Shown here in pieces: positions 29,122 through 64,000 of a stretch of DNA of 64,000 bases (positions are counted from its first letter, which is position 1; each line of letters starts with the position of its first letter). The DNA comes from Siphonodentalium dalli (lineage: Eukaryota > Mollusca > Scaphopoda > Gadilida > Siphonodentaliidae): the NCBI GenBank assembly GCA_032622095.1, contig CP136061.1, positions 16,306,440 to 16,370,439 of the forward strand, in the 5' to 3' direction. The notes beneath the pieces are model-generated. The model saw only the letters and a program-made list of their open reading frames with translations, was not told where the DNA came from and searched no databases. Position numbers and translations under genes: made by a program.

Positions 29122-29345
29122 TATGGTTTACCTATCCGACTATTATGGTTTACCTATCCGATTGGTATGGTTTACCTACCCGACTGGTATGGTTTATCTA
29201 TCCGACTGGTATGGTTTACCTACCCGACTGGTATGGTTTATCTATCCGACTGGTATGGTTTACCTACCCGACTGGTATGGTTTACCTATCCGACTGGTAT
29301 GGTTTACCTATCCGACTGGTATGGTTTACCTATCCGACTGGTATA
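29122..29345. repeat. 22-bp minisatellite, about 10 copies
   Basis: The unit is TATGGTTTACCTATCCGACT plus GG. It varies mainly at two positions (CTACCC for CTATCC, and TTATC for TTACC). The first copy ends ACTAT instead of ACTGG. Two plus-strand ORFs of 75 and 86 codons are translations of this array. Confidence 0.95.
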
Positions 29346-29367
29346 AATAACAAAACAAACAAACACA

Positions 29368-29850: not shown

Positions 29851-29872
29851 GCTTACTGAACTTAGTATCTGA

Positions 29873-32800
29873 ACATCTACCGAGTAACAGCTACCGAGTA
29901 ACATCTACCGAGTAACAGCTACCGAGTAACATCTACCGAGTAACAGCTACCGAGTAACATCTACCGAGTAACAGCTACCGAGTACAGCTACCGAGTAACA
30001 TCTACCGAGTAACAGCTACCGAGTAACATCTACCGAGTAACATCTACCGAGTAACATCTACCGAGTAACATCTACCGAGTAACATCTACCGAGTAACAGC
30101 TACCGAGTAACATCGACCGAGTAACATCTACCGAGTAACATCGACCGAGTAACATCTACCGAGTAACATCGACCGAGTAACATCGACCGAGTAACATCTA
30201 CCGAGTAACATCTACCGAGTAACATCGACCGAGTAACATCTACCGAGTAACATCGACCAAGTAACATCTACCGAGTAACATCTACCGAGTAACATCTACC
30301 GAGTAACATCTACCGAGTAACATCTACCGAGTAACAGCTACCGAGTAACAGCTACCGAGTAACATCTACCGAGTAACATCTACCGAGTAACATCTACCGA
30401 GTAACAGCTACCGAGTAACAGCTACCGAGTAACATCTACCGAGTAACAGCTACCGAGTAACATCTACCGAGTAACATCTACCGAGTAACATCTACCGAGT
30501 AACATCTACCGAGTAACATCTACCGAGTAACATCTACCGAGTAACAGCTACCGAGTAACATCTACCGAATAACATCTACCGAGTAACATCGACCGAGTAA
30601 CATCGACCGAGTAACATCTACCGAGTAACATCGACCGAGTAACATCTACCGAGTAACATCGACCGAGTAACATCTACACGAGTAACATCTACCGAGTAAC
30701 ATCTACCGAGTAACATCTACCGAGTAACATCTACCGAGTAACAGCTACCGAGTAACATCTACCGAGTAACATCTACCGAGTAACATCTACCGAGTAACAT
30801 CTACCGAGTAACAGCTACCGAGTAACAGCTACCGAGTAACATCTACCGAGTAACATCTACCGAGTAACATCTACCGAGTAACATCTACCGAGTAACATCT
30901 ACCGAGTAACATCTACCGAGTAACAGCTACCGAGTAACATCTACCGAGTAACAGCTACCGAGTAACATCTACCGAGTAACATCTACCGAGTAACATCTAC
31001 CGAGTAACATCTACCGAGTAACATCTACCGAGTAACATCTACCGAGTAACATCTACCGAGTAACAGCTACCGAGTAACATCTACCGAGTAACATCTACCG
31101 AGTAACATCTACCGAGTAACATCTACCGAGTAACATCGACCGAGTAACATCTACCGAGTAACATCTACCGAGTAACATCGACCGAGTAACAGCTACCGAG
31201 TAACATCTACCGAGTAACATCTACCGAGTAACATCTACCGAGTAACATCTACCGAGTAACATCTACCGAGTAACAGCTACCGAGTAACATCTACCGAGTA
31301 ACATCTACCGAGTAACATCTACCGAGTAACATCTACCGAGTAACATCGACCGAGTAACATCTACCGAGTAACATCGACCGAGTAACATCGACCGAGTAAC
31401 ATCGACCGAGTAACATCGACCGAGTAACATCTACCGAGTAACATCTACCGAGTAACATCGACCGAGTAACATCGACCGAGTAACATCGACCGAGTAACAT
31501 CTACCGAGTAACATCTACCGAGTAACATCGACCGAGTAACATCTACCGAGTAACATCGACCGAGTAACATCTACCGAGTAACAGCTACCGAGTAACAGCT
31601 ACCGAGTAACAGCTACCGAGTAACATCTACCGAGTAACAGCTACCGAGTAACAGCTACCGAGTAACAGCTACCGAGTAACATCTACCGAGTAACAGCTAC
31701 CGAGTAACAGCTACCGAGTAACATCTACCGAGTAACATCTACCGAGTAACATCTACCGAGTAACAGCTACCGAGTAACAGCTACCGAGTAACAGCTACCG
31801 AGTAACATCTACCGAGTAACATCTACCGAGTAACATCTACCGAGTAACATCTACCGAGTAACAGCTACCGAGTAACATCTACCGAGTAAAAGCTACCGAG
31901 TAACATCTACCGAGTAACATCTACCGAGTAACATCTACCGAGTAACAGGTACCGAGTAACATCTACCGAGTAACAGCTACCGAGTAACAGCTACCGAGTA
32001 ACATCTACCGAGTAACATCTACCGAGTAACATCTACCGAGTAACATCTACCGAGTAACAGCTACCGAGTAACATCTACCGAGTAACATCTACCGAGTAAC
32101 AGCTACCTAGTAACATCTACCGAGTAACATCTACCGAGTAACAGCTACCGAGTAACATCTACCGAGTAACATCTACCGAGTAACAGCTACCGAGTAACAG
32201 CTACCGAGTAACATCTACCGAGTAACAGCTACCGAGTAACAGGTACCGAGTAACATCTACCGAGTATAACATCTACCGAGTAACATCTACCGAGTAACAG
32301 GTACCGAGTAACATCTACCGAGTAACATCTACCGAGTATAACATCTACCGAGTAACATCTACCGAGTAACATCTACCGAGTAACATCTACCGAGTAACAT
32401 CTACCGAGTAACAGCTACCGAGTAACAGGTACCGAGTAACAGCTACCGAGTAACATCTACCGAGTAACATCTACCGAGTAACATCTACCGAGTAACATCT
32501 ACCGAGTAACAGGTACCGAGTAACATCTACCGAGTAACAGGTACCGAGTAACAGCTACCGAGTAACATCTACCGAGTAACAGCTACCGAGTAACAGCTAC
32601 CGAGTAACATCTACCGAGTAACATCTACCGAGTAACAGGTACCGAGTAACAGCTACCGAGTAACATCTACCGAGTAACAGCTACCGAGTAACAGGTACCG
32701 AGTAACAGCTACCGAGTAACAGGTACCGAGTAACAGCTACCGAGTAACATCTACCGAGTAACAGCTACCGAGTAACAGGTACCGAGTAACAGCTACCGAG

Positions 32801-33893
32801 TAACATCTACCGAGTAACAGCTACCGAGTAACAGCTACCGAGTAACAGCTACCGAGTAACAGCTACCGAGTAACATCTACCGAGTAACAGCTACCGAGTA
32901 ACAGCTACCGAGTAACATCTACCGAGTAACAGGTACCGAGTAACATCTACCGAGTAACAGCTACCGAGTAACAGCTACCGAGTAACAGCTACCGAGTAAC
33001 ATCTACCGAGTAACAGCTACCGAGTAACAGCTACCGAGTAACATCTACCGAGTAACAGGTACCGAGTAACATCTACCGAGTAACAGGTACCGAGTAACAT
33101 CTACCGAGTAACATCTACCGAGTAACATCTACCGAGTAACATCTACCGAGTAACATCTACCGAGTAACATCTACCGAGTAACAGCTACCGAGTAACAGGT
33201 ACCGAGTAACAGCTACCGAGTAACAGGTACCGAGTAACAGGTACCGAGTAACATCTACCGAGTAACAGGTACCGAGTAACAGGTACCGAGTAACATCTAC
33301 CGAGTAACAGGTACCGAGTAACATCTACCGAGTAACATCTACCGAGTAACATCTACCGAGTAACATCTACCGAGTAACATCTACCGAGTAACATCTACCG
33401 AGTAACATCTACCGAGTAACAGCTACCGAGTAACAGGTACCGAGTAACATCTACCGAGTAACAGGTACCGAGTAACATCTACCGAGTAACATCTACCGAG
33501 TAACATCTACCGAGTAACATCTACCGAGTAACATCTACCGAGTAACAGGTACCGAGTAACATCTACCGAGTAACATCTACCGAGTAACAGCTACCGAGTA
33601 ACATCTACCGAGTAACAGCTACCGAGTAACAGCTACCGAGTAACATCTACCGAGTAACAGCTACCGAGTAACAGGTACCGAGTAACAGCTACCGAGTAAC
33701 AGGTACCGAGTAACAGCTACCGAGTAACAGGTACCGAGTAACAGCTACCGAGTAACAGCTACCGAGTAACAGGTACCGAGTAACAGCTACCGAGTAACAG
33801 GTACCGAGTAACAGCTACCGAGTAACAGGTACCGAGTAACAGCTACCGAGTAACAGGTACCGAGTAACAGCTACCGAGTAACAGCTACCGAGT
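29873..33893. repeat. 14-bp satellite, first segment (about 287 units)
   Basis: Consensus unit ACCGAGTAACA plus a variable triplet. To about 31940 the triplets are TCT, GCT and TCG, with TCG units concentrated at about 30110-30670 and 31130-31565. GGT units first appear near 31945 and become common to the end of the segment. Sporadic variants include ACCGAGTATAACA (2-bp insertion, near 32262 and 32333), CTACACGAG (30675), GACCAAG (30255), ACCGAATAA (30565) and ACCTAG (32106). The segment ends at the LINE insertion. Confidence 0.98.
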
Positions 33894-34660
33894 AATAATA
33901 ATAATAATGTATAGCATTTTTAAAGCGCCTTATCCCATGAGGCCCAAAGCGCTCAATGATACAACAGATGACCGAGCTCCAGCACATTTAAACACATATA
34001 CGCATGTACACACAAACAATAACTACAATGAAATAAATCAAACAATTCATATACAAATCAGGATGAAGGCTGTGTGTATTGTATAAAACAATGCAGGAAA
34101 TGTGTGCTCAGCTTTGGTCGTCGTCGTTGCCATAGTGAAGTTTAAACAGATACGTTTTGAGTTCTGTTTTGAAAGAGTCCAAAGTAGCAAAATTCCTAAG
34201 TGTAAGCGGGAGTGAATTCCAAAGGTTTGGGCCGTAGCATTCAAAAGATCGACGACCATAATTAACAAGGTCACGTTTGGGGACAGCAAGTAATATTTTA
34301 TCAGCTGACCTTAAGCCTGGTTTACCAGGTACATAGCATGAAAGAAGAGATTCGATATATACAGGGAGGGGCGAGAGACAGTCAAATTTCTTACAACATA
34401 AGACAGCAATTTTATAGTCAATGCGGGCTTGAATTGGTAGCCAGTGCAGTTCTTTGAACATTGGTGTCAGGTCAGAAAATTTAGGCTTCTTAAGAATCAC
34501 ACGAGCAGCAATGTTCATCATACGTTGAAGTTTATCAATTTCTGTCTTTGGTAAGCCAGCCAGAAGTGGGTTACAGTAGTCAATCTTGGAAAGAACAAAT
34601 GACGAAACAAGAGTTTTAGCAGCATCGGTGGTTATGAATGGCCTGATGTGAGAAATTCCG
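33894..34660 (-). mobile_element. 5'-truncated LINE 3' end inserted in the satellite
   Basis: The element lies on the minus strand. Its 3' tail is a TAA/ATT triplet run (33894-33908). Just inside are GAGCGCTTTGGGCCTCATGG and GGCGCTTTAAAAATGCTAT, typical of the 3' UTR of CR1/L2-group LINEs in marine animals. The 5' edge is a truncation within the reverse-transcriptase ORF at 34660. Outside it the satellite resumes in register: ACCGAGTAA on the left and AGGTACCGAG on the right, with about one host base missing between them. No target duplication is evident. Such 5' truncation is the usual outcome of target-primed reverse transcription. Confidence 0.9.
34108..34660 (-). CDS. LINE ORF2 C-terminal fragment (partial, intact frame)
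   Basis: On the minus strand an uninterrupted frame of about 183 codons runs from the truncated 5' edge to a stop at 34108. It reads SHIRPFITTDAAKTLVSSFV, then LSKIDYCNPLLAGLP, KLQRMMNIAARVI, LHWLPIQARIDYKI, LRSADKILLAVPK, then YGRRSFECYGPNLWNSLP and FKTELKTYLF. The boxes DYCN-LL-GLP, LQ-x-x-N-AAR, LHWLPI-x-x-RI, G-R-SF-x-x-x-GP-x-LWN-LP and FK-x-LKTYLF are the well-known C-terminal signature of CR1/L2-like non-LTR retrotransposon ORF2. The region lies after the polymerase palm, so the copy has no catalytic residues. The absence of stops or frameshifts suggests a young insertion. An internal ATG at 34521 is not the true start. Confidence 0.92.
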
Positions 34661-37600
34661 AGGTACCGAGTAACATCTACCGAGTAACAGCTACCGAGTA
34701 ACAGGTACCGAGTAACAGCTACCGAGTAACATCTACCGAGTAACAGCTACCGAGTAACAGGTACCGAGTAACATCTACCGAGTAACATCTACCGAGTAAC
34801 ATCTACCGAGTAACATATACCGAGTAACAGGTACCGAGTAACAGCTACCGAGTAACAGGTACCGAGTAACAGCTACCGAGTAACATCTACCGAGTAACAG
34901 GTACCGAGTAACAGGTACCGAGTAACAGCTACCGAGTAACAGGTACCGAGTAACAGCTACCGAGTAACAGCTACCGAGTAACAGGTACCGAGTAACAGCT
35001 ACCGAGTAACAGCTACCGAGTAACAGCTACCGAGTAACAGCTACCGAGTAACAGCTACCGAGTAACAGGTACCGAGTAACAGCTACCGAGTAACAGGTAC
35101 CGAGTAACAGCTACCGAGTAACAGCTACCGAGTAACAGGTACCGAGTAACAGCTACCGAGTAACAGGTACCGAGTAACATCTACCGAGTAACATCTACCG
35201 AGTAACATCTACCGAGTAACAGCTACCGAGTAACATCTACCGAGTAACATCTACCGAGTAACATCTACCGAGTAACATCTACCGAGTAACATCTACCGAG
35301 TAACAGCTACCGAGTAACATCTACCGAGTAACATCTACCGAGTAACAGCTACCGAGTAACAGGTACCGAGTAACATCTACCGAGTAACAGCTACCGAGTA
35401 ACATCTACCGAGTAACATCTACCGAGTAACAGCTACCGAGTAACATCTACCGAGTAACATCTACCGAGTAACATCTACCGAGTAACAGGTACCGAGTAAC
35501 ATCTACCGAGTAACAGCTACCGAGTAACATCTACCGAGTAACATCTACCGAGTAACAGGTACCGAGTAACATCTACCGAGTAACAGGTACCGAGTAACAT
35601 CTACCGAGTAACAGCTACCGAGTAACAGGTACCGAGTAACATCTACCGAGTAACAGGTACCGAGTAACATCTACCGAGTAACATCTACCGAGTAACAGGT
35701 ACCGAGTAACATCTACCGAGTAACAGGTACCGAGTAACATCTACCGAGTAACATCTACCGAGTAACAGGTACCGAGTAACATCTACCGAGTAACATCTAC
35801 CGAGTAACATCTACCGAGTAACAGCTACCGAGTAACATCTACCGAGTAACATCTACCGAGTAACATCTACCGAGTAACATCTACCGAGTAACATCTACCG
35901 AGTAACAGGTACCGAGTAACATCTACCGAGTAACATCTACCGAGTAACATCTACCGAGTAACATCTACCGAGTAACATCTACCGAGTAACATCTACCGAG
36001 TAACAGCTACCGAGTAACATCTACCGAGTAACAGCTACCGAGTAACAGCTACCGAGTAACATCTACCGAGTAACATCTACCGAGTAACAGGTACCGAGTA
36101 ACATCTACCGAGTAACAGCTACCGAGTAACAGGTACCGAGTAACATCTACCGAGTAACATCTACCGAGTAACAGCTACCGAGTAACAGGTACCGAGTAAC
36201 ATCTACCGAGTAACAGGTACCGAGTAACATCTACCGAGTAACATCTACCGAGTAACAGGTACCGAGTAACATCTACCGAGTAACAGGTACCGAGTAACAG
36301 CTACCGAGTAACATCTACCGAGTAACATCTACCGAGTAACATCTACCGAGTAACATCTACCGAGTAACATCTACCGAGTAACAGGTACCGAGTAACATCT
36401 ACCGAGTAACATCTACCGAGTAACATCTACCGAGTAACAGCTACCGAGTAACATCTACCGAGTAACAGGTACCGAGTAACATCTACCGAGTAACATCTAC
36501 CGAGTAACATCTACCGAGTAACAGGTACCGAGTAACATCTACCGAGTAACAGGTACCGAGTAACATCTACCGAGTAACATCTACCGAGTAACAGGTACCG
36601 AGTAACATCTACCGAGTAACAGGTACCGAGTAACAGCTACCGAGTAACATCTACCGAGTAACATCTACCGAGTAACATCTACCGAGTAACATCTACCGAG
36701 TAACATCTACCGAGTAACAGGTACCGAGTAACATCTACCGAGTAACATCTACCGAGTAACATCTACCGAGTAACAGCTACCGAGTAACATCTACCGAGTA
36801 ACAGGTACCGAGTAACAGGTACCGAGTAACATCTACCGAGTAACAGGTACCGAGTAACATCTACCGAGTAACATCTACCGAGTAACAGCTACCGAGTAAC
36901 AGGTACCGAGTAACATCTACCGAGTAACAGGTACCGAGTAACATCTACCGAGTAACATCTACCGAGTAACAGGTACCGAGTAACATCTACCGAGTAACAG
37001 GTACCGAGTAACAGCTACCGAGTAACATCTACCGAGTAACATCTACCGAGTAACATCTACCGAGTAACATCTACCGAGTAACAGCTACCGAGTAACATCT
37101 ACCGAGTAACATCTACCGAGTAACAGCTACCGAGTAACATCTACCGAGTAACAGGTACCGAGTAACATCTACCGAGTAACATCTACCGAGTAACATCTAC
37201 CGAGTAACATCTACCGAGTAACATCTACCGAGTAACAGGTACCGAGTAACATCTACCGAGTAACATCTACCGAGTAACATCTACCGAGTAACAGCTACCG
37301 AGTAACATCTACCGAGTAACAGGTACCGAGTAACATCTACCGAGTAACATCTACCGAGTAACATCTACCGAGTAACAGGTACCGAGTAACATCTACCGAG
37401 TAACAGGTACCGAGTAACATCTACCGAGTAACATCTACCGAGTAACAGCTACCGAGTAACATCTACCGAGTAACAGCTACCGAGTAACAGCTACCGAGTA
37501 ACAGCTACCGAGTAACAGGTACCGAGTAACAGGTACCGAGTAACATCTACCGAGTAACATCTACCGAGTAACATCTACCGAGTAACAGGTACCGAGTAAC

Positions 37601-40600
37601 ATCTACCGAGTAACATCTACCGAGTAACATCTACCGAGTAACATCTACCGAGTAACATCTACCGAGTAACAGGTACCGAGTAACATCTACCGAGTAACAG
37701 GTACCGAGTAACATCTACCGAGTAACATCTACCGAGTAACAGGTACCGAGTAACAGGTACCGAGTAACAGGTACCGAGTAACATCTACCGAGTAACATCG
37801 ACCGAGTAACATCGACCGAGTAACAGGTACCGAGTAACAGGTACCGAGTAACAGCTACCGAGTAACAGCTACCGAGTAACATCTACCGAGTAACATCTAC
37901 CGAGTAACATATACCGAGTAACATCTACCGAGTAACAGGTACCGAGTAACATCGACCGAGTAACATCTACCGAGTAACATCTACCGAGTAACAGGTACCG
38001 AGTAACATCGACCGAGTAACATCTACCGAGTAACAGGTACCGAGTAACATCTACCGAGTAACAGCTACCGAGTAACATCTACCGAGTAACAGGTACCGAG
38101 TAACAGGTACCGAGTAACAGCTACCGAGTAACATCTACCGAGTAACAGCTACCGAGTAACATCTACCGAGTAACATCTACCGAGTAACATCTACCGAGTA
38201 ACATCTACCGAGTAACATCTACCGAGTAACATCTACCGAGTAACAGGTACCGAGTAACATCTACCGAGTAACATCTACCGAGTAACATCTACCGAGTAAC
38301 AGCTACCGAGTAACATCTACCGAGTAACAGGTACCGAGTAACATCTACCGAGTAACATCTACCGAGTAACATCTACCGAGTAACAGGTACCGAGTAACAT
38401 CTACCGAGTAACAGGTACCGAGTAACATCTACCGAGTAACATCTACCGAGTAACAGCTACCGAGTAACATCTACCGAGTAACAGCTACCGAGTAACAGCT
38501 ACCGAGTAACAGCTACCGAGTAACAGGTACCGAGTAACAGGTACCGAGTAACATCTACCGAGTAACATCTACCGAGTAACAGGTACCGAGTAACATCTAC
38601 CGAGTAACATCTACCGAGTAACAGGTACCGAGTAACAGCTACCGAGTAACATCTACCGAGTAACATCTACCGAGTAACAGCTACCGAGTAACAGCTACCG
38701 AGTAACATCTACCGAGTAACATCTACCGAGTAACATCTACCGAGTAACAGCTACCGAGTAACATCTACCGAGTAACATCTACCGAGTAACATCTACCGAG
38801 TAACATCTACCGAGTAACAGGTACCGAGTAACATCTACCGAGTAACATCTACCGAGTAACATCTACCGAGTAACAGGTACCGAGTAACATCTACCGAGTA
38901 ACATCTACCGAGTAACAGGTACCGAGTAACATCTACCGAGTAACATCTACCGAGTAACATCTACCGAGTAACATCTACCGAGTAACATCTACCGAGTAAC
39001 AGGTACCGAGTAACATCTACCGAGTAACAGGTACCGAGTAACATCTACCGAGTAACAGGTACCGAGTAACATCTACCGAGTAACATCTACCGAGTAACAT
39101 CTACCGAGTAACATCTACCGAGTAACATCTACCGAGTAACATCTACCGAGTAACATCTACCGAGTAACAGGTACCGAGTAACATCTACCGAGTAACATCT
39201 ACCGAGTAACATCTACCGAGTAACATCTACCGAGTAACAGGTACCGAGTAACATCTACCGAGTAACATATACCGAGTAACAGGTACCGAGTAACAGCTAC
39301 CGAGTAACATCTACCGAGTAACAACTACCGAGTAACAGCTACCGAGTAACATCTACCGAGTAACAGGTACCGAGTAACAGCTACCGAGTAACATCTACCG
39401 AGTAACAGGTACCGAGTAACATCTACCGAGTAACAGGTACCGAGTAACAGGTACCGAGTAACATCTACCGAGTAACAGGTACCGAGTAACATCTACCGAG
39501 TAACAGGTACCGAGTAACAGCTACCGAGTAACATCTACCGAGTAACAACTACCGAGTAACAGCTACCGAGTAACATCTACCGAGTAACAGGTACCGAGTA
39601 ACATCTACCGAGTAACAACTACCGAGTAACAGCTACCGAGTAACAGCTACCGAGTAACAGGTACCGAGTAACATCTACCGAGTAACATCTACCGAGTAAC
39701 ATCTACCGAGTAACATCTACCGAGTAACAGGTACCGAGTAACATCTACCGAGTAACATCTACCGAGTAACATCTACCGAGTAACATCTACCGAGTAACAG
39801 GTACCGAGTAACAGCTACCGAGTAACATCTACCGAGTAACATCTACCGAGTAACAGCTACCGAGTAACAGGTACCGAGTAACAGCTACCGAGTAACATCT
39901 ACCGATTAACATCTACCGAGTAACATCTACCGAGTAACATCTACCGAGTAACAGGTACCGAGTAACATCTACCGAGTAACAGGTACCGAGTAACATCTAC
40001 CGAGTAACATCTACCGAGTAACATCTACCGAGTAACATCTACCGATTAACATCTACCGAGTAACATCTACCGAGTAACAGGTACCGAGTAACATCTACCG
40101 AGTAACATCTACCGAGTAACATCTACCGAGTAACATCTACCGAGTATAACATCTACCGAGTAACATCTACCGAGTAACAGGTACCGAGTAACATCTACCG
40201 AGTAACATCTACCGAGTAACATCTACCGAGTAACATCTACCGAGTAACATCTACCGAGTAACAGGTACCGAGTAACAGCTACCGAGTAACATCTACCGAG
40301 TAACATCTACCGAGTAACAGCTACCGAGTAACAGGTACCGAGTAACAGCTACCGAGTAACATCTACCGAGTAACATCTACCGAGTAACATCTACCGAGTA
40401 ACATCTACCGAGTAACAGGTACCGAGTAACATCTACCGAGTAACAGGTACCGAGTAACATCTACCGAGTAACAGGTACCGAGTAACATCTACCGAGTAAC
40501 ATCTACCGAGTAACAGGTACCGAGTAACATCCACCGAGTAACAGCTACCGAGTAACATCTACCGAGTAACATCTACCGAGTAACATCTACCGAGTAACAG

Positions 40601-43600
40601 GTACCGAGTAACATCTACCGAGTAACAGGTACCGAGTAACATCTACCGAGTAACAGGTACCGAGTAACATCTACCGAGTAACAGGTACCGAGTAACATCT
40701 ACCGAGTAACATCTACCGAGTAACAGGTACCGAGTAACATCTACCGAGTAACATCTACCGAGTAACATCTACCGAGTAACAGGTACCGAGTAACATCTAC
40801 CGAGTAACATCTACCGAGTAACATCTACCGAGTAACATCTACCGAGTAACATCTACCGAGTAACAGCTACCGAGTAACATCTACCGAGTAACATCTACCG
40901 AGTAACATCTACCGAGTAACATCTACCGAGTAACATCTACCGAGTAACATCTACCGAGTAACATCTACCGAGTAACATCTACCGAGTAACATCTACCGAG
41001 TAACAGCTACCGAGTAACAGCTACCGAGTAACATCTACCGAGTAACATCTACCGAGTAACAGCTACCGAGTAACATCTACCGAGTAACATCTACCGAGTA
41101 ACAGGTACCGAGTAACATCTACCGAGTAACAGGTACCGAGTAACATCTACCGAGTAACAGGTACCGAGTAACAGGTACCGAGTAACATCCACCGAGTAAC
41201 ATCTACCGAGTAACATCGACCGAGTAACATCTACCGAGTAACATCTACCGAGTAACATCGACCGAGTAACATCGACCGAGTAACATCGACCGAGTAACAT
41301 CGACCGAGTAACATCTACCGAGTAACATCTACCGAGTAACATCGACCGAGTAACAGCTACCGAGTAACATCTACCGAGTAACATCTACCGAGTAACAGCT
41401 ACCTAGTAACATCTACCGAGTAACATCTACCGAGTAACAGCTACCGAGTAACATCTACCGAGTAACATCTACCGAGTAACAGCTACCGAGTAACAGCTAC
41501 CGAGTAACATCTACCGAGTAACAGCTACCGAGTAACAGGTACCGAGTAACATCTACCGAGTATAACATCTACCGAGTAACATCTACCGAGTAACAGGTAC
41601 CGAGTAACATCTACCGAGTATAACATCTACCGAGTATAACATCTACCGAGTAACATCTACCGAGTAACATCTACCGAGTAACATCTACCGAGTAACATCT
41701 ACCGAGTAACAGGTACCGAGTAACAGCTACCGAGTAACAGCTACCGAGTAACATCTACCGAGTAACATCTACCGAGTAACATCTACCGAGTAACAGGTAC
41801 CGAGTAACATCTACCGAGTAACATCTACCGAGTAACAGGTACCGAGTAACAGCTACCGAGTAACATCTACCGAGTAACAGCTACCGAGTAACAGGTACCG
41901 AGTAACAGCTACCGAGTAACAGGTACCGAGTAACAGGTACCGAGTAACATCTACCGAGTAACAGGTACCGAGTAACATCTACCGAGTAACATCTACCGAG
42001 TAACAGCTACCGAGTAACATCTACCGAGTAACAGCTACCGAGTAACAGGTACCGAGTAACAGCTACCGAGTAACAGGTACCGAGTAACAGCTACCGAGTA
42101 ACATCTACCGAGTAACATCTACCGAGTAACATCTACCGAGTAACATCTACCGAGTAACAGCTACCGAGTAACATCTACCGAGTAACAGCTACCGAGTAAC
42201 ATCTACCGAGTAACATCTACCGAGTAACAGGTACCGAGTAACATCTACCGAGTAACAGCTACCGAGTAACATCTACCGAGTAACAGCTACCGAGTAACAT
42301 CTACCGAGTAACAGGTACCGAGTAACAGGTACCGAGTAACAGGTACCGAGTAACATCTACCGAGTAACATCTACCGAGTAACAGCTACCGAGTAACATCT
42401 ACCTAGTAACAGGTACCGAGTAACAGCTACCGAGTAACAGCTACCGAGTAACAGGTACCGAGTAACAGCTACCGAGTAACATCTACCGAGTAACAGGTAC
42501 CGAGTAACAGGTACCGAGTAACATCTACCGAGTAACAGGTACCGAGTAACATCTACCGAGTAACATCTACCGAGTAACAGCTACCGAGTAACATCTACCG
42601 AGTAACAGCTACCGAGTAACAGGTACCGAGTAACAGCTACCGAGTAACAGGTACCGAGTAACATCTACCGAGTAACATCTACCGAGTAACATCTACCGAG
42701 TAACAGGTACCGAGTAACAGCTACCGAGTAACATCTACCGAGTAACATCTACCGAGTAACATCTACCGAGTAACATCTACCGAGTAACAGCTACCGAGTA
42801 ACATCTACCGAGTAACAGCTACCGAGTAACAGGTACCGAGTAACAGCTACCGAGTAACAGCTACCGAGTAACAGGTACCGAGTAACAGCTACCGAGTAAC
42901 ATCTACCGAGTAACAGCTACCGAGTAACAGGTACCGAGTAACAGCTACCGAGTAACAGGTACCGAGTAACAGGTACCGAGTAACATCTACCGAGTAACAG
43001 GTACCGAGTAACATCTACCGAGTAACATCTACCGAGTAACAGCTACCGAGTAACAGCTACCGAGTAACATCTACCGAGTAACAGCTACCGAGTAACAGGT
43101 ACCGAGTAACATCTACCGAGTAACATCTACCGAGTAACATCTACCGAGTAACATCTACCGAGTAACATCTACCGAGTAACAGCTACCGAGTAACATCTAC
43201 CGAGTAACAGGTACCGAGTAACAGGTACCGAGTAACAGCTACCGAGTAACAGGTACCGAGTAACATCTACCGAGTAACATCTACCGAGTAACATCTACCG
43301 AGTAACAGGTACCGAGTAACATCTACCGAGTAACATCTACCGAGTAACAGGTACCGAGTAACATCTACCGAGTAACATCTACCGAGTAACATCTACCGAG
43401 TAACAGCTACCGAGTAACATCTACCGAGTAACATCTACCGAGTAACAGGTACCGAGTAACATCTACCGAGTAACATCTACCGAGTAACAGCTACCGAGTA
43501 ACAGCTACCGAGTATAACATCTACCGAGTAACATCTACCGAGTAACATCTACCGAGTAACATCTACCGAGTAACAGGTACCGAGTAACATCTACCGAGTA

Positions 43601-44834
43601 ACATCTACCGAGTAACATCTACCGAGTAACAGGTACCGAGTAACATCTACCGAGTAACATCTACCGAGTAACAGCTACCGAGTAACATCTACCGAGTAAC
43701 AGCTACCGAGTAACAGGTACCGAGTAACAGCTACCGAGTAACAGGTACCGAGTAACAGGTACCGAGTAACATCTACCGAGTAACATCTACCGAGTAACAG
43801 GTACCGAGTAACATCTACCGAGTAACATCTACCGAGTAACAGGTACCGAGTAACAGGTACCGAGTAACAGCTACCGAGTAACATCTACCGAGTAACAGCT
43901 ACCGAGTAACAGCTACCGAGTAACATCTACCGAGTAACATCTACCGAGTAACATCTACCGAGTAACAGCTACCGAGTAACATCTACCGAGTAACATCTAC
44001 CGAGTAACAGGTACCGAGTAACATCTACCGAGTAACATCTACCGAGTAACATCTACCGAGTAACATATACCGAGTAACAGGTACCGAGTAACAGCTACCG
44101 AGTAACATCTACCGAGTAACAGGTACCGAGTAACATCTACCGAGTAACATCTACCGAGTAACATCTACCGAGTAACATCTACCGAGTAACAGGTACCGAG
44201 TAACAGCTACCGAGTAACATCTACCGAGTAACAACTACCGAGTAACAGCTACCGAGTAACAGCTACCGAGTAACATCTACCGAGTAACATCTACCGAGTA
44301 ACAGGTACCGAGTAACATCTACCGAGTAACATCTACCGAGTAACAGGTACCGAGTAACATCTACCGAGTAACATCTACCGAGTAACAGGTACCGAGTAAC
44401 AGGTACCGAGTAACAGCTACCGAGTAACATCTACCGAGTAACAGCTACCGAGTAACATCTACCGAGTAACATCTACCGAGTAACATCTACCGAGTAACAG
44501 CTACCGAGTAACAGCTACCGAGTAACAGGTACCGAGTAACATCTACCGAGTAACATCTACCGAGTAACATCTACCGAGTAACATCTACCGAGTAACAGGT
44601 ACCGAGTAACATCTACCGAGTAACATCTACCGAGTAACATCTACCGAGTAACATCTACCGAGTAACAGGTACCGAGTAACATCTACCGAGTAACATCTAC
44701 CGAGTAACATCTACCGAGTAACATCTACCGAGTAACATCTACCGAGTAACAGGTACCGAGTAACAGCTACCGAGTAACATCTACCGAGTAACAGGTACCG
44801 AGTAACATCTACCGAGTAACATCTACCGAGTAAC

Positions 44835-50100: not shown

Positions 50101-53100
50101 AGGTACCGAGTAACATCCACCGAGTAACAGCTACCGAGTAACATCTACCGAGTAACATCTACCGAGTAACATCTACCGAGTAACAGGTACCGAGTAACAT
50201 CTACCGAGTAACAGGTACCGAGTAACATCTACCGAGTAACAGGTACCGAGTAACATCTACCGAGTAACAGGTACCGAGTAACATCTACCGAGTAACATCT
50301 ACCGAGTAACAGGTACCGAGTAACATCTACCGAGTAACATCTACCGAGTAACATCTACCGAGTAACAGGTACCGAGTAACATCTACCGAGTAACATCTAC
50401 CGAGTAACATCTACCGAGTAACATCTACCGAGTAACAGCTACCGAGTAACATCTACCGAGTAACATCTACCGAGTAACATCTACCGAGTAACATCTACCG
50501 AGTAACATCTACCGAGTAACATCTACCGAGTAACATCTACCGAGTAACATCTACCGAGTAACATCTACCGAGTAACAGCTACCGAGTAACAGCTACCGAG
50601 TAACAGCTACCGAGTAACATCTACCGAGTAACATCTACCGAGTAACAGCTACCGAGTAACATCTACCGAGTAACATCTACCGAGTAACATCTACCGAGTA
50701 ACAGGTACCGAGTAACATCTACCGAGTAACAGGTACCGAGTAACATCTACCGAGTAACAGGTACCGAGTAACAGGTACCGAGTAACATCCACCGAGTAAC
50801 ATCTACCGAGTAACAGGTACCGAGTAACATCTACCGAGTAACATCTACCGAGTAACAGGTACCGAGTAACAGGTACCGAGTAACATCCACCGAGTAACAT
50901 CTACCGAGTAACATCTACCGAGTAACATCTACCGAGTAACAGCTACCGAGTAACATCTACCGAGTAACATCTACCGAGTAACATCTACCGAGTAACATCT
51001 ACCGAGTAACGAGTAACATCTACCGAGTAACATCTACCGAGTAACAGCTACCGAGTAACATCTACCGAGTAACGAGTAACATCTACCGAGTAACATCTAC
51101 CGAGTAACAGCTACCGAGTAACATCTACCGAGTAACATCTACCGAGTAACATCTACCGAGTAACATCCACCGAGTAACATCTACCGAGTAACATCTACCG
51201 AGTAACATCTACCGAGTAACATCTACCGAGTAACAGGTACCGAGTAACATCTACCGAGTAACAGGTACCGAGTAACATCCACCGAGTAACATCTACCGAG
51301 TAACATCTACCGAGTAACATCTACCGAGTAACAGGTACCGAGTAACATCTACCGAGTAACATCCACCGAGTAACATCTACCGAGTAACATCTACCGAGTA
51401 ACATCTACCGAGTAACATCCACCGAGTAACATCTACCGAGTAACATCTACCGAGTAACATCCACCGAGTAACATCCACCGAGTAACATCCACCGAGTAAC
51501 ATCTACCGAGTAACATCTACCGAGTAACATCTACCGAGTAACATCCACCGAGTAACATCCACCGAGTAACATCTACCGAGTAACATCTACCGAGTAACAT
51601 CTACCGAGTAACAGGTACCGAGTAACATCTACCGAGTAACAGGTACCGAGTAACATCTACCGAGTAACAGGTACCGAGTAACAGGTACCGAGTAACATCT
51701 ACCGAGTAACATCTACCGAGTAACATCCACCGAGTAACATCCACCGAGTAACATCTACCGAGTAACATCTACCGAGTAACATCTACCGAGTAACATCTAC
51801 CGAGTAACATCTACCGAGTAACATCTACCGAGTAACATCTACCGAGTAACATCTACCGAGTAACATCTACCGAGTAACATCTACCGAGTAACATCTACCG
51901 AGTAACAGGTACCGAGTAACATCCACCGAGTAACATCTACCGAGTAACATCTACCGAGTAACAGGTACCGAGTAACAGGTACCGAGTAACATCCACCGAG
52001 TAACATCTACCGAGTAACAGGTACCGAGTAACATCTACCGAGTAACATCTACCGAGTAACAGGTACCGAGTAACAGGTACCGAGTAACATCCACCGAGTA
52101 ACATCTACCGAGTAACAGGTACCGAGTAACATCTACCGAGTAACATCTACCGAGTAACAGGTACCGAGTAACATCTACCGAGTAACATCTACCGAGTAAC
52201 AGGTACCGAGTAACATCTACCGAGTAACATCTACCGAGTAACAGCTACCGAGTAACATCTACCGAGTAACATCTACCGAGTAACATCTACCGAGTAACAT
52301 CTACCGAGTAACATCTACCGAGTAACATCTACCGAGTAACATCTACCGAGTAACATCTACCGAGTAACAGCTACCGAGTAACAGCTACCGAGTAACATCT
52401 ACCGAGTAACAGCTACCGAGTAACATCTACCGAGTAACATCTACCGAGTAACATCTACCGAGTAACATCTACCGAGTATAACATCTACCGAGTAACATCT
52501 ACCGAGTAACATCTACCGAGTAACAGCTACCGAGTAACATCTACCGAGTAACATCTACCGAGTAACATCTACCGAGTAACAGCTACCGAGTAACATCTAC
52601 CGAGTAACATCTACCGAGTAACATCTACCGAGTATAACATCTACCGAGTAACATCTACCGAGTAACAGCTACCGAGTAACATCTACCGAGTAACATCTAC
52701 CGAGTAACATCTACCGAGTAACATCTACCGAGTAACATCTACCGAGTAACATCTACCGAGTAACAGGTACCGAGTAACATCTACCGAGTAACAGGTACCG
52801 AGTAACAGGTACCGAGTAACATCTACCGAGTAACATCTACCGAGTAACAGGTACCGAGTAACATCTACCGAGTAACATCTACCGAGTAACAGGTACCGAG
52901 TAACATCTACCGAGTAACATCTACCGAGTAACAGGTACCGAGTAACAGGTACCGAGTAACATCTACCGAGTAACAGCTACCGAGTAACAGCTACCGAGTA
53001 ACATCTACCGAGTAACAGGTACCGAGTAACATCTACCGAGTAACATCTACCGAGTAACATCTACCGAGTAACATCTACCGAGTAACAGGTACCGAGTAAC

Positions 53101-53760
53101 AGCTACCGAGTAACAGGTACCGAGTAACATCTACCGAGTAACAGGTACCGAGTAACATCTACCGAGTATCATCTACCGAGTAACATCTACCGAGTAACAT
53201 CTACCGAGTAACATCTACCGAGTAACATCTACCGAGTAACATCTACCGATTAACATCTACCGAGTAACATCTACCGAGTAACAGCTACCGAGTAACAGCT
53301 ACCGAGTAACATCTACCGAGTAACATCTACCGAGTAACATCTACCGAGTAACATCTACCGAGTAACAGGTACCGAGTAACATCTACCGAGTAACATCTAC
53401 CGAGTAACAGGTACCGAGTAACAGCTACCGAGTAACAGGTACCGAGTAACATCTACCGAGTAACAGGTACCGAGTAACATCTACCGAGTAACATCTACCG
53501 AGTAACAGCTACCGAGTAACATCTACCGAGTAACATCTACCGAGTAACATCTACCGAGTAACATCTACCGAGTAACAGCTACCGAGTAACATCTACCGAG
53601 TAACATCTACCGAGTAACATCTACCGAGTAACATCTACCGAGTAACAGGTACCGAGTAACATCTACCGAGTAACATCTACCGAGTAACATCTACCGAGTA
53701 ACATCTACCGAGTAACATCTACCGAGTAACAGGTACCGAGTAACAGCTACCGAGTAACAT
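50101..53760. repeat. Intra-satellite duplication, copy 2
   Basis: Partner of 44835-48240. For example, 53281-53340, 53401-53460 and 53461-53520 are identical, unit for unit, to 47761-47820, 47881-47940 and 47941-48000. It has two GTATAAC markers (52478 and 52634) where copy 1 has one, which locates part of the internal expansion. Confidence 0.85.
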
Positions 53761-56700
53761 CTACCGAGTAACATCTACCGAGTAACATCTACCGAGTAAC
53801 AGCTACCGAGTAACATCTACCGAGTAACAGGTACCGAGTAACAGGTACCGAGTAACAGGTACCGAGTAACAGCTACCGAGTAACAGGTACCGAGTAACAG
53901 CTACCGAGTAACATCTACCGAGTAACATCTACCGAGTAACAGGTACCGAGTAACATCTACCGAGTAACAGGTACCGAGTAACATCTACCGAGTAACAGGT
54001 ACCGAGTAACATCTACCGAGTAACATCTACCGAGTAACAGCTACCGAGTAACATCTACCGAGTAACATCTACCGAGTAACATCTACCGAGTAACATCTAC
54101 CGAGTAACATCTACCGAGTAACAGCTACCGAGTAACATCTACCGAGTAACATCTACCGAGTAACATCTACCGAGTAACATCTACCGAGTAACATCTACCG
54201 AGTAACAGGTACCGAGTAACATCTACCGAGTAACATCTACCGAGTAACATCTACCGAGTAACATCTACCGAGTAACAGCTACCGAGTAACATCTACCGAG
54301 TAACATCTACCGAGTAACATCTACCGAGTAACATCTACCGAGTAACATCTACCGAGTAACAGGTACCGAGTAACATCTACCGAGTAACATCTACCGAGTA
54401 ACATCTACCGAGTAACATCTACCGAGTAACATCTACCGAGTAACATCTACCGAGTAACAGGTACCGAGTAACATCTACCGAGTAACATCTACCGAGTAAC
54501 ATCTACCGAGTAACATCTACCGAGTAACATCTACCGAGTAACATCTACCGAGTAACAGCTACCGATTAACAGCTACCGAGTAACAGGTACCGAGTAACAT
54601 CTACCGAGTAACAGGTACCGAGTAACAGGTACCGAGTAACATCTACCGAGTAACATCTACCGAGTAACATCTACCGAGTAACATCTACCGAGTAACATCT
54701 ACCGAGTAACATCTACCGAGTAACATCTACCGAGTAACATCTACCGAGTAACAGCTACCGAGTAACATCTACCGAGTAACATCTACCGAGTAACAGGTAC
54801 CGAGTAACATCTACCGAGTAACAGCTACCGAGTAACAGGTACCGAGTAACATCTACCGAGTAACATCTACCGAGTAACAGCTACCGAGTAACAGGTACCG
54901 AGTAACATCTACCGAGTAACAGCTACCGAGTAACAGGTACCGAGTAACATCTACCGAGTAACATCTACCGAGTAACATCTACCGAGTAACATCTACCGAG
55001 TAACAGCTACCGAGTAACAGCTACCGAGTAACAGCTACCGAGTAACATCTACCGAGTAACAGCTACCGAGTAACATCTACCGAGTAACAGCTACCGAGTA
55101 ACATCTACCGAGTAACAGCTACCGAGTAACATCTACCGAACATCTACCGAGTAACATCTACCGAGTAACATCTACCGAACATCTACCGAGTAACATCTAC
55201 CGAGTAACAGCTACCGAGTAACATCTACCGAGTAACAGCTACCGAGTAACAGCTACCGAGTAACAGCTACCGAGTAACATCTACCGAGTAACAGCTACCG
55301 AGTAACATCTACCGAACATCTACCGAGTAACATCTACCGAGTAACATCTACCGAACATCTACCGAGTAACATCTACCGAGTAACAGGTACCGAGTAACAT
55401 CTACCGAGTAACATCTACCGAGTAACCGGTACCGAGTAACATCTACCGAGTAACAGCTACCGAGTAACAGGTACCGAGTAACATCTACCGAGTAACAGCT
55501 ACCGAGTAACATCTACCGAGTAACATCTACCGAGTAACATCTACCGAGTAACATCTACCGAGTAACATCTACCGAGTAACATCTACCGAGTAACAGGTAC
55601 CGAGTAACATCTACCGAGTAACAGCTACCGAGTAACATCTACCGAGTAACATCTACCGAGTAACAGGTACCGAGTAACATCTACCGAGTAACAGCTACCG
55701 AGTAACAGGTACCGAGTAACATCTACCGAGTAACATCTACCGAGTAACATCTACCGAGTAACAGGTACCGAGTAACATCTACCGAGTAACAGCTACCGAG
55801 TAACATCTACCGAGTAACATCTACCGAGTAACATCTACCGAGTAACATCTACCGAGTAACATCTACCGAGTAACATCTACCGAGTAACAGGTACCGAGTA
55901 ACATCTACCGAGTAACAGCTACCGAGTAACATCTACCGAGTAACATCTACCGAGTAACAGGTACCGAGTAACATCTACCGAGTAACAGCTACCGAGTAAC
56001 AGGTACCGAGTAACATCTACCGAGTAACATCTACCGAGTAACATCTACCGAGTAACAGGTACCGAGTAACATCTACCGAGTAACAGCTACCGAGTAACAT
56101 CTACCGAGTAACATCTACCGAGTAACATCTACCGAGTAACATCTACCGAGTAACAGGTACCGAGTAACATCTACCGAGTAACAGGTACCGAGTAACATCT
56201 ACCGAGTAACAGCTACCGAGTAACATCTACCGAGTAACATCTACCGAGTAACATCTACCGAGTAACAGCTACCGAGTAACATCTACCGAGTAACAGCTAC
56301 CGAGTAACATCTACCGAGTAACATCTACCGAGTAACATCTACCGAGTAACATCTACCGAGTAACATCTACCGAGTAACAGCTACCGAGTAACAGGTACCG
56401 AGTAACAGGTACCGAGTAACATCTACCGAGTAACATCTACCGAGTAACATCTACCGAGTAACATCTACCGAGTAACAGGTACCGAGTAACATCTACCGAG
56501 TAACAGCTACCGAGTAACATCTACCGAGTAACAGCTACCGAGTAACATCTACCGAGTAACAGCTACCGAGTAACATCTACCGAGTAACAGCTACCGAGTA
56601 ACATCTACCGAGTAACATCTACCGAGTAACATCTACCGAGTAACAGCTACCGAGTAACATCTACCGAGTAACAGCTACCGAGTAACATCTACCGAGTAAC

Positions 56701-59700
56701 AGCTACCGAGTAACATCTACCGAGTAACAGCTACCGAGTAACATCTACCGAGTAACATCTACCGAGTAACATCTACCGAGTAACAGCTACCGAGTAACAT
56801 CTACCGAGTAACATCTACCGAGTAACATCTACCGAGTAACATCTACCGAGTAACATCTACCGAGTAACAGGTACCGAGTAACATCTACCGAGTAACATCT
56901 ACCGAGTAACATCTACCGAGTAACAGGTACCGAGTAACATCTACCGAGTAACATCTACCGAACATCTACCGAGTAACATCTACCGAGTAACATCTACCGA
57001 GTAACATCTACCGAGTAACAGGTACCGAGTAACATCTACCGAGTAACATCTACCGAGTAACATCTACCGAGTAACATCTACCGAGTAACATCTACCGAGT
57101 AACATCTACCGAGTAACATCTACCGAGTAACAGGTACCGAGTAACATCTACCGAGTAACAGCTACCGAGTAACAGGTACCGAGTAACATCTACCGAGTAA
57201 CAGCTACCGAATAACAGGTACCGAGTAACATCTACCGAGTAACATCTACCGAACATCTACCGAGTAACATCTACCGAGTAACATCTACCGAGTAACATCT
57301 ACCGAGTAACAGGTACCGAGTAACATCTACCGAGTAACAGGTACCGAGTAACATCTACCGAGTAACAGCTACCGAGTAACATCTACCGAGTAACAGCTAC
57401 CGAGTAACATCTACCGAGTAACATCTACCGAGTAACATCTACCGAGTAACATCTACCGAGTAACAGGTACCGAGTAACATCTACCGAGTAACATCTACCG
57501 AGTAACATCTACCGAGTAACAGGTACCGAGTAACATCTACCGAGTAACAGCTACCGAGTAACATCTACCGAGTAACAGCTACCGAGTAACATCTACCGAG
57601 TAACATCTACCGAGTAACATCTACCGAGTAACATCTACCGAGTAACAGCTACCGAGTAACAGCTACCGAGTAACAGGTACCGAGTAACATCTACCGAGTA
57701 ACATCTACCGAGTAACATCTACCGAGTAACATCTACCGAGTAACATCTACCGAGTAACATCTACCGAGTAACATCTACCGAGTAACATCTACCGAGTAAC
57801 AGGTACCGAGTAACATCTACCGAGTATAACATCTACCGAGTAACAGCTACCGAGTAACATCTACCGAGTATAACATCTACCGAGTAACAGGTACCGAGTA
57901 ACAGGTACCGAGTAACATCTACCGAGTAACATCTACCGAGTAACATCTACCGAGTAACAGCTACCGAGTAACATCTACCGAGTAACAGCTACCGAGTAAC
58001 ATCTACCGAGTAACATCTACCGAGTAACATCTACCGAGTAACATCTACCGAGTAACATCTACCGAGTAACATCTACCGAGTAACATCTACCGAGTAACAG
58101 GTACCGAGTAACATCTACCGAGTAACATCTACCGAGTAACATCTACCGAGTAACATCTACCGAGTAACAGGTACCGAGTAACAGGTACCGAGTAACATCT
58201 ACCGAGTAACATATACCGAGTAACAGGTACCGAGTAACAGGTACCGAGTAACATCTACCGAGTAACATCTACCGAGTAACATCTACCGAGTAACATCTAC
58301 CGAGTAACAGGTACCGAGTAACAGGTACCGAGTAACAGGTACCGAGTAACAGGTAACGAGTAACATCTACCGAGTAACATCTACCGAGTAACATCTACCG
58401 AGTAACATCTACCGAGTAACATCTACCGAGTAACATCTACCGAGTAACAGGTACCGAGTAACATCTACCGAGTAACAGCTACCGAGTAACATCTACCGAG
58501 TAACATCTACCGAGTAACATCTACCGAGTAACATCTACCGAGTAACATCTACCGAGTAACATCTACCGAGTAACATCTACCGAGTAACATCTACCGAGTA
58601 ACATCTACCGAGTAACATCTACCGAGTAACATCTACCGAGTAACATCTACCGAGTAACATCTACCGAGTAACATCTACCGAGTAACATCTACCGAGTAAC
58701 ATCTACCGAGTAACATCTACCGAGTAACAGGTACCGAGTAACATCTACCGAGTAACATCTACCGAGTAACATCTACCGAGTAACATCTACCGAGTAACAT
58801 CTACCGAGTAACATCTACCGAGTAACATCTACCGAGTAACATCTACCGAGTAACATCTACCGAGTAACATCTACCGAGTAACATCTACCGAGTAACATCT
58901 ACCGAGTAACAGCTACCGAGTAACAGCTACCGAGTAACATCTACCGAGTAACATCTACCGAGTAACAGCTACCGAGTAACATCTACCGAGTAACAGCTAC
59001 CGAGTAACATCTACCGAGTAACATCTACCGAGTAACATCTACCGAGTAACATCTACCGAGTAACATCTACCGAGTAACATCTACCGAGTAACATCTACCG
59101 AGTAACATCTACCGAGTAACAGGTACCGAGTAACATCTACCGAGTAACATCTACCGAGTAACATCTACCGAGTAACATCTACCGAGTAACAGGTACCGAG
59201 TAACAGGTACCGAGTAACATCTACCGAGTAACATATACCGAGTAACAGGTACCGAGTAACAGGTACCGAGTAACATCTACCGAGTAACATCTACCGAGTA
59301 ACATCTACCGAGTAACAGGTACCGAGTAACAGGTACCGAGTAACATCTACCGAGTAACATCTACCGAGTAACAGGTACCGAGTAACAGGTAACGAGTAAC
59401 ATCTACCGAGTAACATCTACCGAGTAACAGCTACCGAGTAACAGGTACCGAGTAACAGGTACCGAGTAACATCTACCGAGTAACATCTACCGAGTAACAG
59501 CTACCGAGTAACATCTACCGAGTAACATCTACCGAGTAACATCTACCGAGTAACAGGTACCGAGTAACATCTACCGAGTAACATCTACCGAGTAACAGGT
59601 ACCGAGTAACATCTACCGAGTAACAGGTACCGAGTAACAGCTACCGAGTAACATCTACCGAGTAACATCTACCGAGTAACATCTACCGAGTAACATCTAC

Positions 59701-62700
59701 CGAGTAACATCTACCGAGTAACATCTACCGAGTAACATCTACCGAGTAACATCTACCGAGTAACAGGTACCGAGTAACATCTACCGAGTAACAGCTACCG
59801 AGTAACATCTACCGAGTAACATCTACCGAGTAACATCTACCGAGTAACATCTACCGAGTAACATCTACCGAGTAACAGGTACCGAGTAACATCTACCGAG
59901 TAACAGCTACCGAGTAACATCTACCGAGTAACATCTACCGAGTAACATCTACCGAGTAACATCTACCGAGTAACATCTACCGAGTAACATCTACCGAGTA
60001 ACATCTACCGAGTAACATCTACCGAGTAACATCTACCGAGTAACATCTACCGAGTAACAGGTACCGAGTAACATCTACCGAGTAACATCTACCGAGTAAC
60101 ATCTACCGAGTAACATCTACCGAGTAACATCTACCGAGTAACAGGTACCGAGTAACATCTACCGAGTAACATCTACCGAGTAACATCTACCGAGTAACAT
60201 CTACCGAGTAACAGGTACCGAGTAACATCTACCGAGTAACAGGTACCGAGTAACATCTACCGAGTAACAGCTACCGAGTAACATCTACCGAGTAACATCT
60301 ACCGAGTAACATCTACCGAGTAACATCTACCGAGTAACATCTACCGAGTAACATCTACCGAGTAACATCTACCGAGTAACATCTACCGAGTAACATCTAC
60401 CGAGTAACAGGTACCGAGTAACATCTACCGAGTAACATCTACCGAGTAACATCTACCGAGTAACAGGTACCGAGTAACAGGTACCGAGTAACATCTACCG
60501 AGTAACATCTACCGAGTAACATCTACCGAGTAACAGCTACCGAGTAACATCTACCGAGTAACAGGTACCGAGTAACATCTACCGAGTAACAGCTACCGAG
60601 TAACATCTACCGAGTAACATCTACCGAGTAACATCTACCGAGTAACATCTACCGAGTAACATCTACCGAGTAACATCTACCGAGTAACATCTACCGAGTA
60701 ACAGCTACCGAGTAACATCTACCGAGTAACAGGTACCGAGTAACATCTACCGAGTAACAGCTACCGAGTAACATCTACCGAGTAACATCTACCGAGTAAC
60801 ATCTACCGAGTAACATCTACCGAGTAACATCTACCGAGTACCATCTACCGAGTAACATCTACCGAGTAACATCTACCGAGTAACATCTACCGAGTAACAG
60901 CTACCGAGTAACATCTACCGAGTAACAGGTACCGAGTAACAGCTACCGAGTAACATCTACCGAGTAACATCTACCGAGTAACAGGTACCGAGTAACATCT
61001 ACCGAGTAACATCTACCGAGTAACAGGTACCGAGTAACATCTACCGAGTAACATCTACCGAGTAACATCTACCGAGTAACATCTACCGAGTAACAGCTAC
61101 CGAGTAACATCTACCGAGTAACAGCTACCGAGTAACATCTACCGAGTAACAGCTACCGAGTAACAGCTACCGAGTAACATCTACCGAGTAACAGCTACCG
61201 AGTAACAGCTACCGAGTAACATCTACCGAGTAACATATACCGAGTAACATCTACCGAGTAACATATACCGAGTAACATCTACCGAGTAACAGGTACCGAG
61301 TAACAGCTACCGAGTAACATCTACCGAGTAACATCTACCGAGTAACAGGTACCGAGTAACAGCTACCGAGTAACAGCTACCGAGTAACAGGTACCGAGTA
61401 ACATCTACCGAGTAACATCTACCGAGTAACATCTACCGAGTAACATCTACCGAGTAACATCTACCGAGTAACATCTACCGAGTAACATCTACCGAGTAAC
61501 ATCTACCGAGTAACATCTACCGAGTAACATCTACCGAGTAACATCTACCGAGTAACAGGTACCGAGTAACATCTACCGAGTAACATCTACCGAGTAACAT
61601 CTACCGAGTAACATCTACCGAGTAACAGGTACCGATTAACAGGTACCGAGTAACATCTACCGAGTAACATCTACCGAGTAACATCTACCGAGTAACATCT
61701 ACCGAGTAACATCTACCGAGTAACATCTACCGAGTAACAGGTACCGAGTAACATCTACCGAGTAACAGCTACCGAGTAACATCTACCGAGTAACATCTAC
61801 CGAGTAACATCTACCGAGTAACATCTACCGAGTAACAGCTACCGAGTAACATCTACCGAGTAACATCTACCGAGTAACATCTACCGAGTAACATCTACCG
61901 AGTAACAGGTACCGAGTAACATATACCGAGTAACATCTACCGAGTAACAGCTACCGAGTAACATCTACCGAGTAACATCTACCGAGTAACATCTACCGAG
62001 TAACATCTACCGAGTAACATCTACCGAGTAACAGCTACCGAGTAACATCTACCGAGTAACAGCTACCGAGTAACATCTACCGAGTAACAGGTACCGAGTA
62101 ACATCTACCGAGTAACATCTACCGAGTAACATCTACCGAGTAACATCTACCGAGTAACATCTACCGAGTAACATCTACCGAGTAACATCTACCGAGTAAC
62201 ATCTACCGAGTAACATCTACCGAGTAACATCTACCGAGTAACAGGTACCGAGTAACATCTACCGAGTAACAGGTACCGAGTAACATCTACCGAGTAACAG
62301 CTACCGAGTAACATCTACCGAGTAACAGGTACCGAGTAACATCTACCGAGTAACAGGTACCGAGTAACATCTACCGAGTAACATCTACCGAGTAACATCT
62401 ACCGAGTAACAGGTACCGAGTAACATGTACCGAGTAACATCTACCGAGTAACATCTACCGAGTAACATCTACCGAGTAACAGGTACCGAGTAACATCTAC
62501 CGAGTAACATCTACCGAGTAACATCTACCGAGTAACATCTACCGAGTAACATCTACCGAGTAACATCTACCGAGTAACATCTACCGAGTAACAGGTACCG
62601 AGTAACAGCTACCGAGTAACATCTACCGAGTAACATCTACCGAGTAACATCTACCGAGTAACATCTACCGAGTAACATCTACCGAGTAACATCTACCGAG

Positions 62701-64000
62701 TAACAGCTACCGAGTAACATCTACCGAGTAACAGCTACCGAGTAACAGGTACCGAGTAACATCTACCGAGTAACATCTACCGAGTAACATCTACCGAGTA
62801 ACATCTACCGAGTAACAGCTACCGAGTAACATCTACCGAGTAACATCTACCGAGTAACATCTACCGAGTAACATCTACCGAGTAACAGCTACCGAGTAAC
62901 ATCTACCGAGTAACATCTACCGAGTAACATCTACCGAGTAACATCTACCGAGTAACATCTACCGAGTAACAGGTACCGAGTAACATCTACCGAGTAACAT
63001 CTACCGAGTAACAGGTACCGAGTAACATCTACCGAGTAACAGCTACCGAGTAACATCTACCGAGTAACAGGTACCGAGTAACATCTACCGAGTAACAGCT
63101 ACCGAGTAACATCTACCGAGTAACATCTACCGAGTAACAGCTACCGAGTAACATCTACCGAGTAACATCTACCGAGTAACATCTACCGAGTAACAGGTAC
63201 CGAGTAACATCTACCGAGTAACATCTACCGAGTAACATCTACCGAGTAACATATACCGAGTAACATCTACCGAGTAACAACTACCGAGTAACAGCTACCG
63301 AGTAACAGCTACCGAGTAACATCTACCGAGTAACAACTACCGAGTAACAGCTACCGAGTAACATCTACCGAGTAACATCTACCGAGTAACAGCTACCGAG
63401 TAACATCTACCGAGTAACATCTACCGAGTAACATCTACCGAGTAACAGGTACCGAGTAACAGCTACCGAGTAACAGGTACCGAGTAACAGCTACCGAGTA
63501 ACATCTACCGAGTAACAGCTACCGAGTAACATCTACCGAGTAACATCTACCGAGTAACAGGTACCGAGTAACATCTACCGAGTAACATCTACCGAGTAAC
63601 AGGTACCGAGTAACATCTACCGAGTAACAGGTACCGAGTAACATCTACCGAGTAACAGGTACCGAGTAACATCTACCGAGTAACAGGTACCGAGTAACAT
63701 CTACCGAGTAACAGGTACCGAGTAACATCTACCGAGTAACAGGTACCGAGTAACATCTACCGAGTAACATCTACCGAGTAACATCTACCGAGTAACAGCT
63801 ACCGAGTAACAGCTACCGAGTAACATCTACCGAGTAACATCTACCGAGTAACATCTACCGAGTAACATCTACCGAGTAACATCTACCGAGTAACAGGTAC
63901 CGAGTAACATCTACCGAGTAACATCCACCGAGTAACATCTACCGAGTAACATCTACCGAGTAACATCTACCGAGTAACATCTACCGAGTAACAGGTACCG

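Follow-up and report, generated by a model that had tools for sequence, protein, structure and literature searches.

How can a tandem array of more than three thousand units hold eleven bases of a 14-base unit nearly constant and vary almost solely in the other three? The question is raised by a 64,000-nucleotide stretch of the Siphonodentalium dalli genome (contig CP136061.1, positions 16,306,440 to 16,370,439, forward strand), the whole of which is called the window below and the right-hand part of which is a 14-bp tandem array. In this array, unit positions 1–11 are referred to as the core and positions 12–14 as the slot. The array is probably a single-locus, non-coding variant-repeat minisatellite that grew from founder units differing in the slot, by block duplication and by unequal exchange or conversion. 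It looks like an ordinary minisatellite, though one of unusual length, and not like a sequence that is coded or guarded by a protein.

A single 14-bp array at one locus

29872..64000, continuing past the window to 78055 (window numbering), plus strand: 14-bp tandem array (Tandem Repeats Finder, cyclic alignment)

Tandem Repeats Finder returned a single 14-bp array, with the consensus ACCGAGTAACATCT, that starts at 29,872 and reaches the window end; position 64,000 is the edge of the window and not the end of the array, which overruns it by 14 kb. Units were parsed by cyclic alignment, which tolerates substitutions, insertions or deletions (indels) and inserts and does not require perfect cores. 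The whole array measured 48.2 kb and comprised 3,390 parsed units, a few of which are fragments next to an edge, an indel or the insert described below. The in-window share was 2,386 units, close to the approximately 2,400 given in a preliminary description of the window. The array and both of its flanks lie within a single contig of 277 Mb, about 16.3 Mb from its start.

The genome (2.23 Gb in 9 contigs) was searched with a pattern of two cores separated by a free slot, allowing up to 2 mismatches. This gave 3,340 forward and 0 reverse matches genome-wide, and the same numbers in the 100 kb around the array. Likewise, all 1,983 genome-wide matches to the exact two-unit pattern with TCT in the slot fell within these 100 kb. 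In this search, which covered two-core sites of this genome, no second site was found outside the array; as genome-wide repeat counts are lower bounds, further copies are not strictly excluded. Classical satellite DNA is present at numerous loci or forms very long arrays, frequently at centromeres, and the single 48-kb locus found in this 2.23-Gb genome does not fit that description. The locus has the features of a minisatellite, namely tandem units in the range of about 10–100 bp at a single locus (here 14 bp, one array) and few, intermingled unit variants (8 slot triplets in the window, 9 across the array). The guanine-plus-cytosine (GC) content of about 45%, compared with 35–43% across the preceding 28 kb, does not make the array GC-rich, a property that is usual for minisatellites and not required.

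Variation is concentrated in the slot

The preliminary description had placed nearly all variation in the triplet after ACCGAGTAACA, and 1,324 of the 1,346 substitution cells in the window were indeed found there. Per-position entropies in the window were 0.945, 0.712 and 0.267 bits at positions 12–14 and at most 0.049 bits at positions 1–11; for the whole array they were 0.937, 0.705 and 0.228 bits, with all other positions at or below 0.045 bits. The slot alphabet of the window consisted of exactly the eight triplets reported before, with counts, for units of at least 12 bases, of 1466 for TCT, 417 for GGT, 383 for GCT, 53 for TCG, 36 for TCC, 11 for TAT, 6 for ACT and 1 for TGT. A ninth triplet, TCA, appeared past the window in 9 units. 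Transitions between the common triplets were near random, and TCG, TAT and TCC tended to follow themselves.

Over the whole array the slot carried 1791 of 1847 substitutions (0.970), and 144 of 200 when the variants of the common triplets were set aside. Core substitutions were commoner past the window (34 in 1,004 units) than inside it (22 in 2,386 units). The few core changes had been said to recur, and this held for the whole array: 77 of the 85 units with a changed core, indels included, shared the change with another unit, and 38 of the 85 had the same change within 30 units.

Types, origins and copies of changes

Changes were counted in three ways, as types, as origins and as copies. As types, 16 of the 33 possible core substitutions and 7 of the 9 possible slot substitutions were present, which is not a significant difference (p 0.15). 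Origins were estimated as a lower bound by merging occurrences of the same change that lay no more than 40 units apart or had similar contexts; units under 11 bases were left out of these counts, as were T12G and C13G, because the latter two are present everywhere. The 50 lower-bound origins, 33 in the core and 17 in the slot, were spread over 12 of the 14 positions, with 3, 3, 3, 4, 0, 8, 1, 0, 2, 6 and 3 origins at core positions 1–11 and 3, 8 and 6 at slot positions 12–14. Hence, new mutations have arisen along most of the unit, and core position 6 matches slot position 13 with 8 origins each.

As copies, the slot changes T12G, C13G, T14G, C13A and T14C reached 1,132, 515, 53, 40 and 36 units, respectively. 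The core substitutions reached at most 12 copies, and no core change of any kind exceeded 16. With a core maximum of 16 copies against up to 1,132 in the slot, the main contrast between the two parts of the unit is therefore one of copying.

The core change with 16 copies inserts TA ahead of position 7; it goes back to at least 7 lower-bound origins and represents slippage that has recurred inside the core.

Copied blocks and regional domains

Fifteen pairs of blocks, 25–58 units long and offset by 21–1303 units, gave scores of 41–113, compared with 27 and 28 as the highest scores reached by two Markov null models. Some blocks were identical, such as units 17–56 and 1320–1359 (40/40) and units 1090–1135 and 1470–1515 (46/46). 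Several variants formed regional domains: GGT was absent before unit 149 and beyond unit 2,857, TCG units were gathered in a few clusters, 33 of the 36 TCC units lay in 1015–1149 and 1392–1534, 29 of the 40 C13A units lay at unit 2,930 or later, and all 9 TCA units at 2,919 or later. C13G occurred only once without T12G, and GGT is thus nested in GCT. In all 9 cases T14A was followed by A1T in the next unit; the pair is a two-base change that was copied as a whole. Together, these blocks and domains point to block duplication. The suggestion that the core is either homogenised or constrained can be divided, in that homogenisation by copying is supported by the block pairs, whereas a constrained core beside a tolerant slot is not borne out by the substitution types.

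A simple higher-order period was considered and rejected, as the autocorrelation was nearly flat, with the best offsets (13, 2 and 6) at 0.455–0.462 compared with 0.417 expected.

The history that we favour would start from founder units that already differed in their last three bases, with TCT first, then GCT and then GGT. Tandem block duplication, together with unequal exchange or conversion, would have multiplied these units, and later mutations would have spread over most of the unit with few of them copied far. Because so few were copied far, the core would look invariant and the slot alphabet small.

Neutral copying and its alternatives

Neutral copying was simulated in a simple form, with uniform mutation, random blocks and matching limits of our own choosing. 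The observed diversity was matched by 110 of 1,600 runs that began from a uniform array and by 397 of 3,500 that began from founders mixing the three common triplets. In 24 of its 397 matched runs the founder model brought the slot share as a whole to 0.963, and as the share in the array is slightly higher than this threshold, the true figure would be a little below 24/397.

Several results weigh against founders plus neutral copying as a full account. The uniform-start model is insufficient: none of its 110 matched runs had 95% of the variation in any 3-position window, and in none of 26 runs did 4–6 common types all fall in one such window. For the other variants, no more than 2 of the 397 founder runs came up to the slot share of 72% seen in the array, and among 55 founder runs with exactly three new common types, none had all three in the slot. 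Uniform mutation and copying thus explain incompletely why T14G, T14C and C13A were amplified and core changes were not. Slot origins were also in excess (17/50; p 0.0045 per visible type, 0.038 per position, and 0.001 when adjusted for base with rates taken from the core), and copies per origin were higher in the slot under all four clusterings (p 0.0007, 0.0036, 0.036 and 0.039). In our simulations neutral copying would mostly be enough, with a modest slot excess left unexplained. Since three amplified variants (T14G, T14C and C13A) underlie this excess, founders plus copying are preferred; the residual does leave room for the following alternative.

The core might be a cis-acting site, such as one for a bound protein, a break or replication slippage, that amplification needs, so that units with a damaged core arise normally and are rarely copied while the slot is free. 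We regard this as unlikely. In its favour, in addition to the rarity with which either simulation attains the observed slot share, mean copies per origin were 8.5 in the slot and 1.7 in the core at the clustering with p 0.039 (T12G and C13G left out). Moreover, variants with at least 30 copies came only from slot origins, 5 of 19 compared with 0 of 33 in the core when T12G and C13G are taken as one origin each (Fisher p 0.004), and 3 of 17 without these two (p 0.035). However, this contrast depends on five variants, and core changes have multiplied as well, with C10T in 12 units and A1T in 11, all past the window, besides the TA insertion. Three 70-nt strings of units folded no better than shuffles, and the genome-wide two-core search offers no second core locus.

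The slot could instead be a local mutation hotspot, with a core free of selection. The excess of slot origins speaks for this, and C13A alone accounts for 8 lower-bound origins, but core positions 6 and 10 have 8 and 6 origins of their own, and the best sum over any 3 positions, 17, was reached in 28% of trials with uniform draws (P 0.28). The 53 copies of T14G and 36 of T14C come from 2 lower-bound origins each, which is copying and not mutation. A hotspot is therefore quite improbable as the source of the pattern.

Near-perfect tandem arrays are difficult to assemble, but an assembly or consensus artefact behind the core uniformity or the array length is very improbable, as long copied blocks retain slot variants of single units and core variants reappear together with the units beside them, both of which smoothing should erase, and one contig holds the array and both flanks.

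Coding and RNA checks, insert and neighbouring repeats

A coding array was rejected, as no open reading frame of at least 150 amino acids occurs in the window's array part. Between 34,664 and 78,055, a range that leaves the first 4 kb of the array outside the count, all six frames contain stops and the longest open run is 97 codons, on the minus strand. No structured RNA was found at Rfam gathering scores, and no transfer RNA by ARAGORN with the bacterial code. The window holds the following other features.

3915-4696 and 5910-7170: two arrays of 155–164-bp units with similar consensus sequences
10628-12064, minus strand: 478-codon open frame encoding a partial reverse transcriptase domain (PF00078)
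29122..29344, plus strand: 22-bp minisatellite, 10.1 copies (Tandem Repeats Finder)
29367..29851, plus strand: 40-bp minisatellite, 12.1 copies (Tandem Repeats Finder)
33896..34663, minus strand: 768-bp insert that interrupts the array; its left end on the plus strand bears a TAA-type tail

The insert is probably a single later retroposon insertion. Its minus-strand open frame, at 34108-34746, extends into the array and presumably resembles the end of ORF2 of a long interspersed nuclear element (LINE). Against Pfam this frame had no match above the curated cut-off, and a NAD_synthase hit (E 0.23, 11 bits, cut-off 21) was taken as chance. The reverse transcriptase frame had no match in PDB at E 0.001.

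Directly upstream of the array, the 22-bp minisatellite is followed by the 40-bp one, which stops 20 bases short of the first 14-bp unit. Having two such neighbours fits the reading of the array as a minisatellite. The mutation spectrum of the 14-bp array was compared with that of four longer arrays in the window. Its origins were poor in transitions (11/50 compared with 91/180 variant types, p 0.0003) and rich in C>A or G>T (23/50 compared with 27/180, p 0.00001); the class counts were summed by hand, and the comparison is rough because fixed periods were used to divide the control arrays, in which types rather than origins were counted. The 22-bp and 40-bp arrays, with 5 and 2 types (5/7 transitions), were not pooled into the control.

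Comparison with known repeat systems

As it stands, the locus is mostly an ordinary long minisatellite, and so long a variant-repeat map within one contig can help in studying the growth of tandem arrays. If copying did depend on the core, a cis requirement for minisatellite amplification would be readable from sequence alone, and the array would amount to a natural selection experiment reading out the site base by base.

Among known systems, Meloidogyne satellite DNAs that contain a CENP-B-like box likewise vary unevenly along the unit and keep one segment conserved, a pattern that their description links to selective constraint and array rearrangement (PMC3694981). There, several divergent satellites are described as sharing the box, whereas the present array has one locus, a 14-bp unit and no second core site found with the two-core pattern (PMC3694981). 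A literature search for hypervariable minisatellites built of 14-bp repeats returned no papers. The human Y minisatellite MSY1, as outlined in one account, likewise consists of several base-substitution variants of one short unit, and its map is altered by copying and conversion between neighbours (PMC2599865). Compared with the features of MSY1 given there, the variants of the present array are interspersed, its units fold no better than shuffles, and other unit lengths occur (PMC2599865). Mouse hypervariable minisatellites studied by minisatellite variant repeat (MVR) mapping are characterised by units of 10 to over 100 bp with few, intermingled variant types, and minisatellite lengths there range from 100 bp to over 20 kb (PMC1929145). 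The present array resembles them in its short tandem units and its few variant types intermingled along the array; it differs in standing, at 48 kb, at the long end of the range stated there and, at about 45% GC, in not being clearly GC-rich (PMC1929145).
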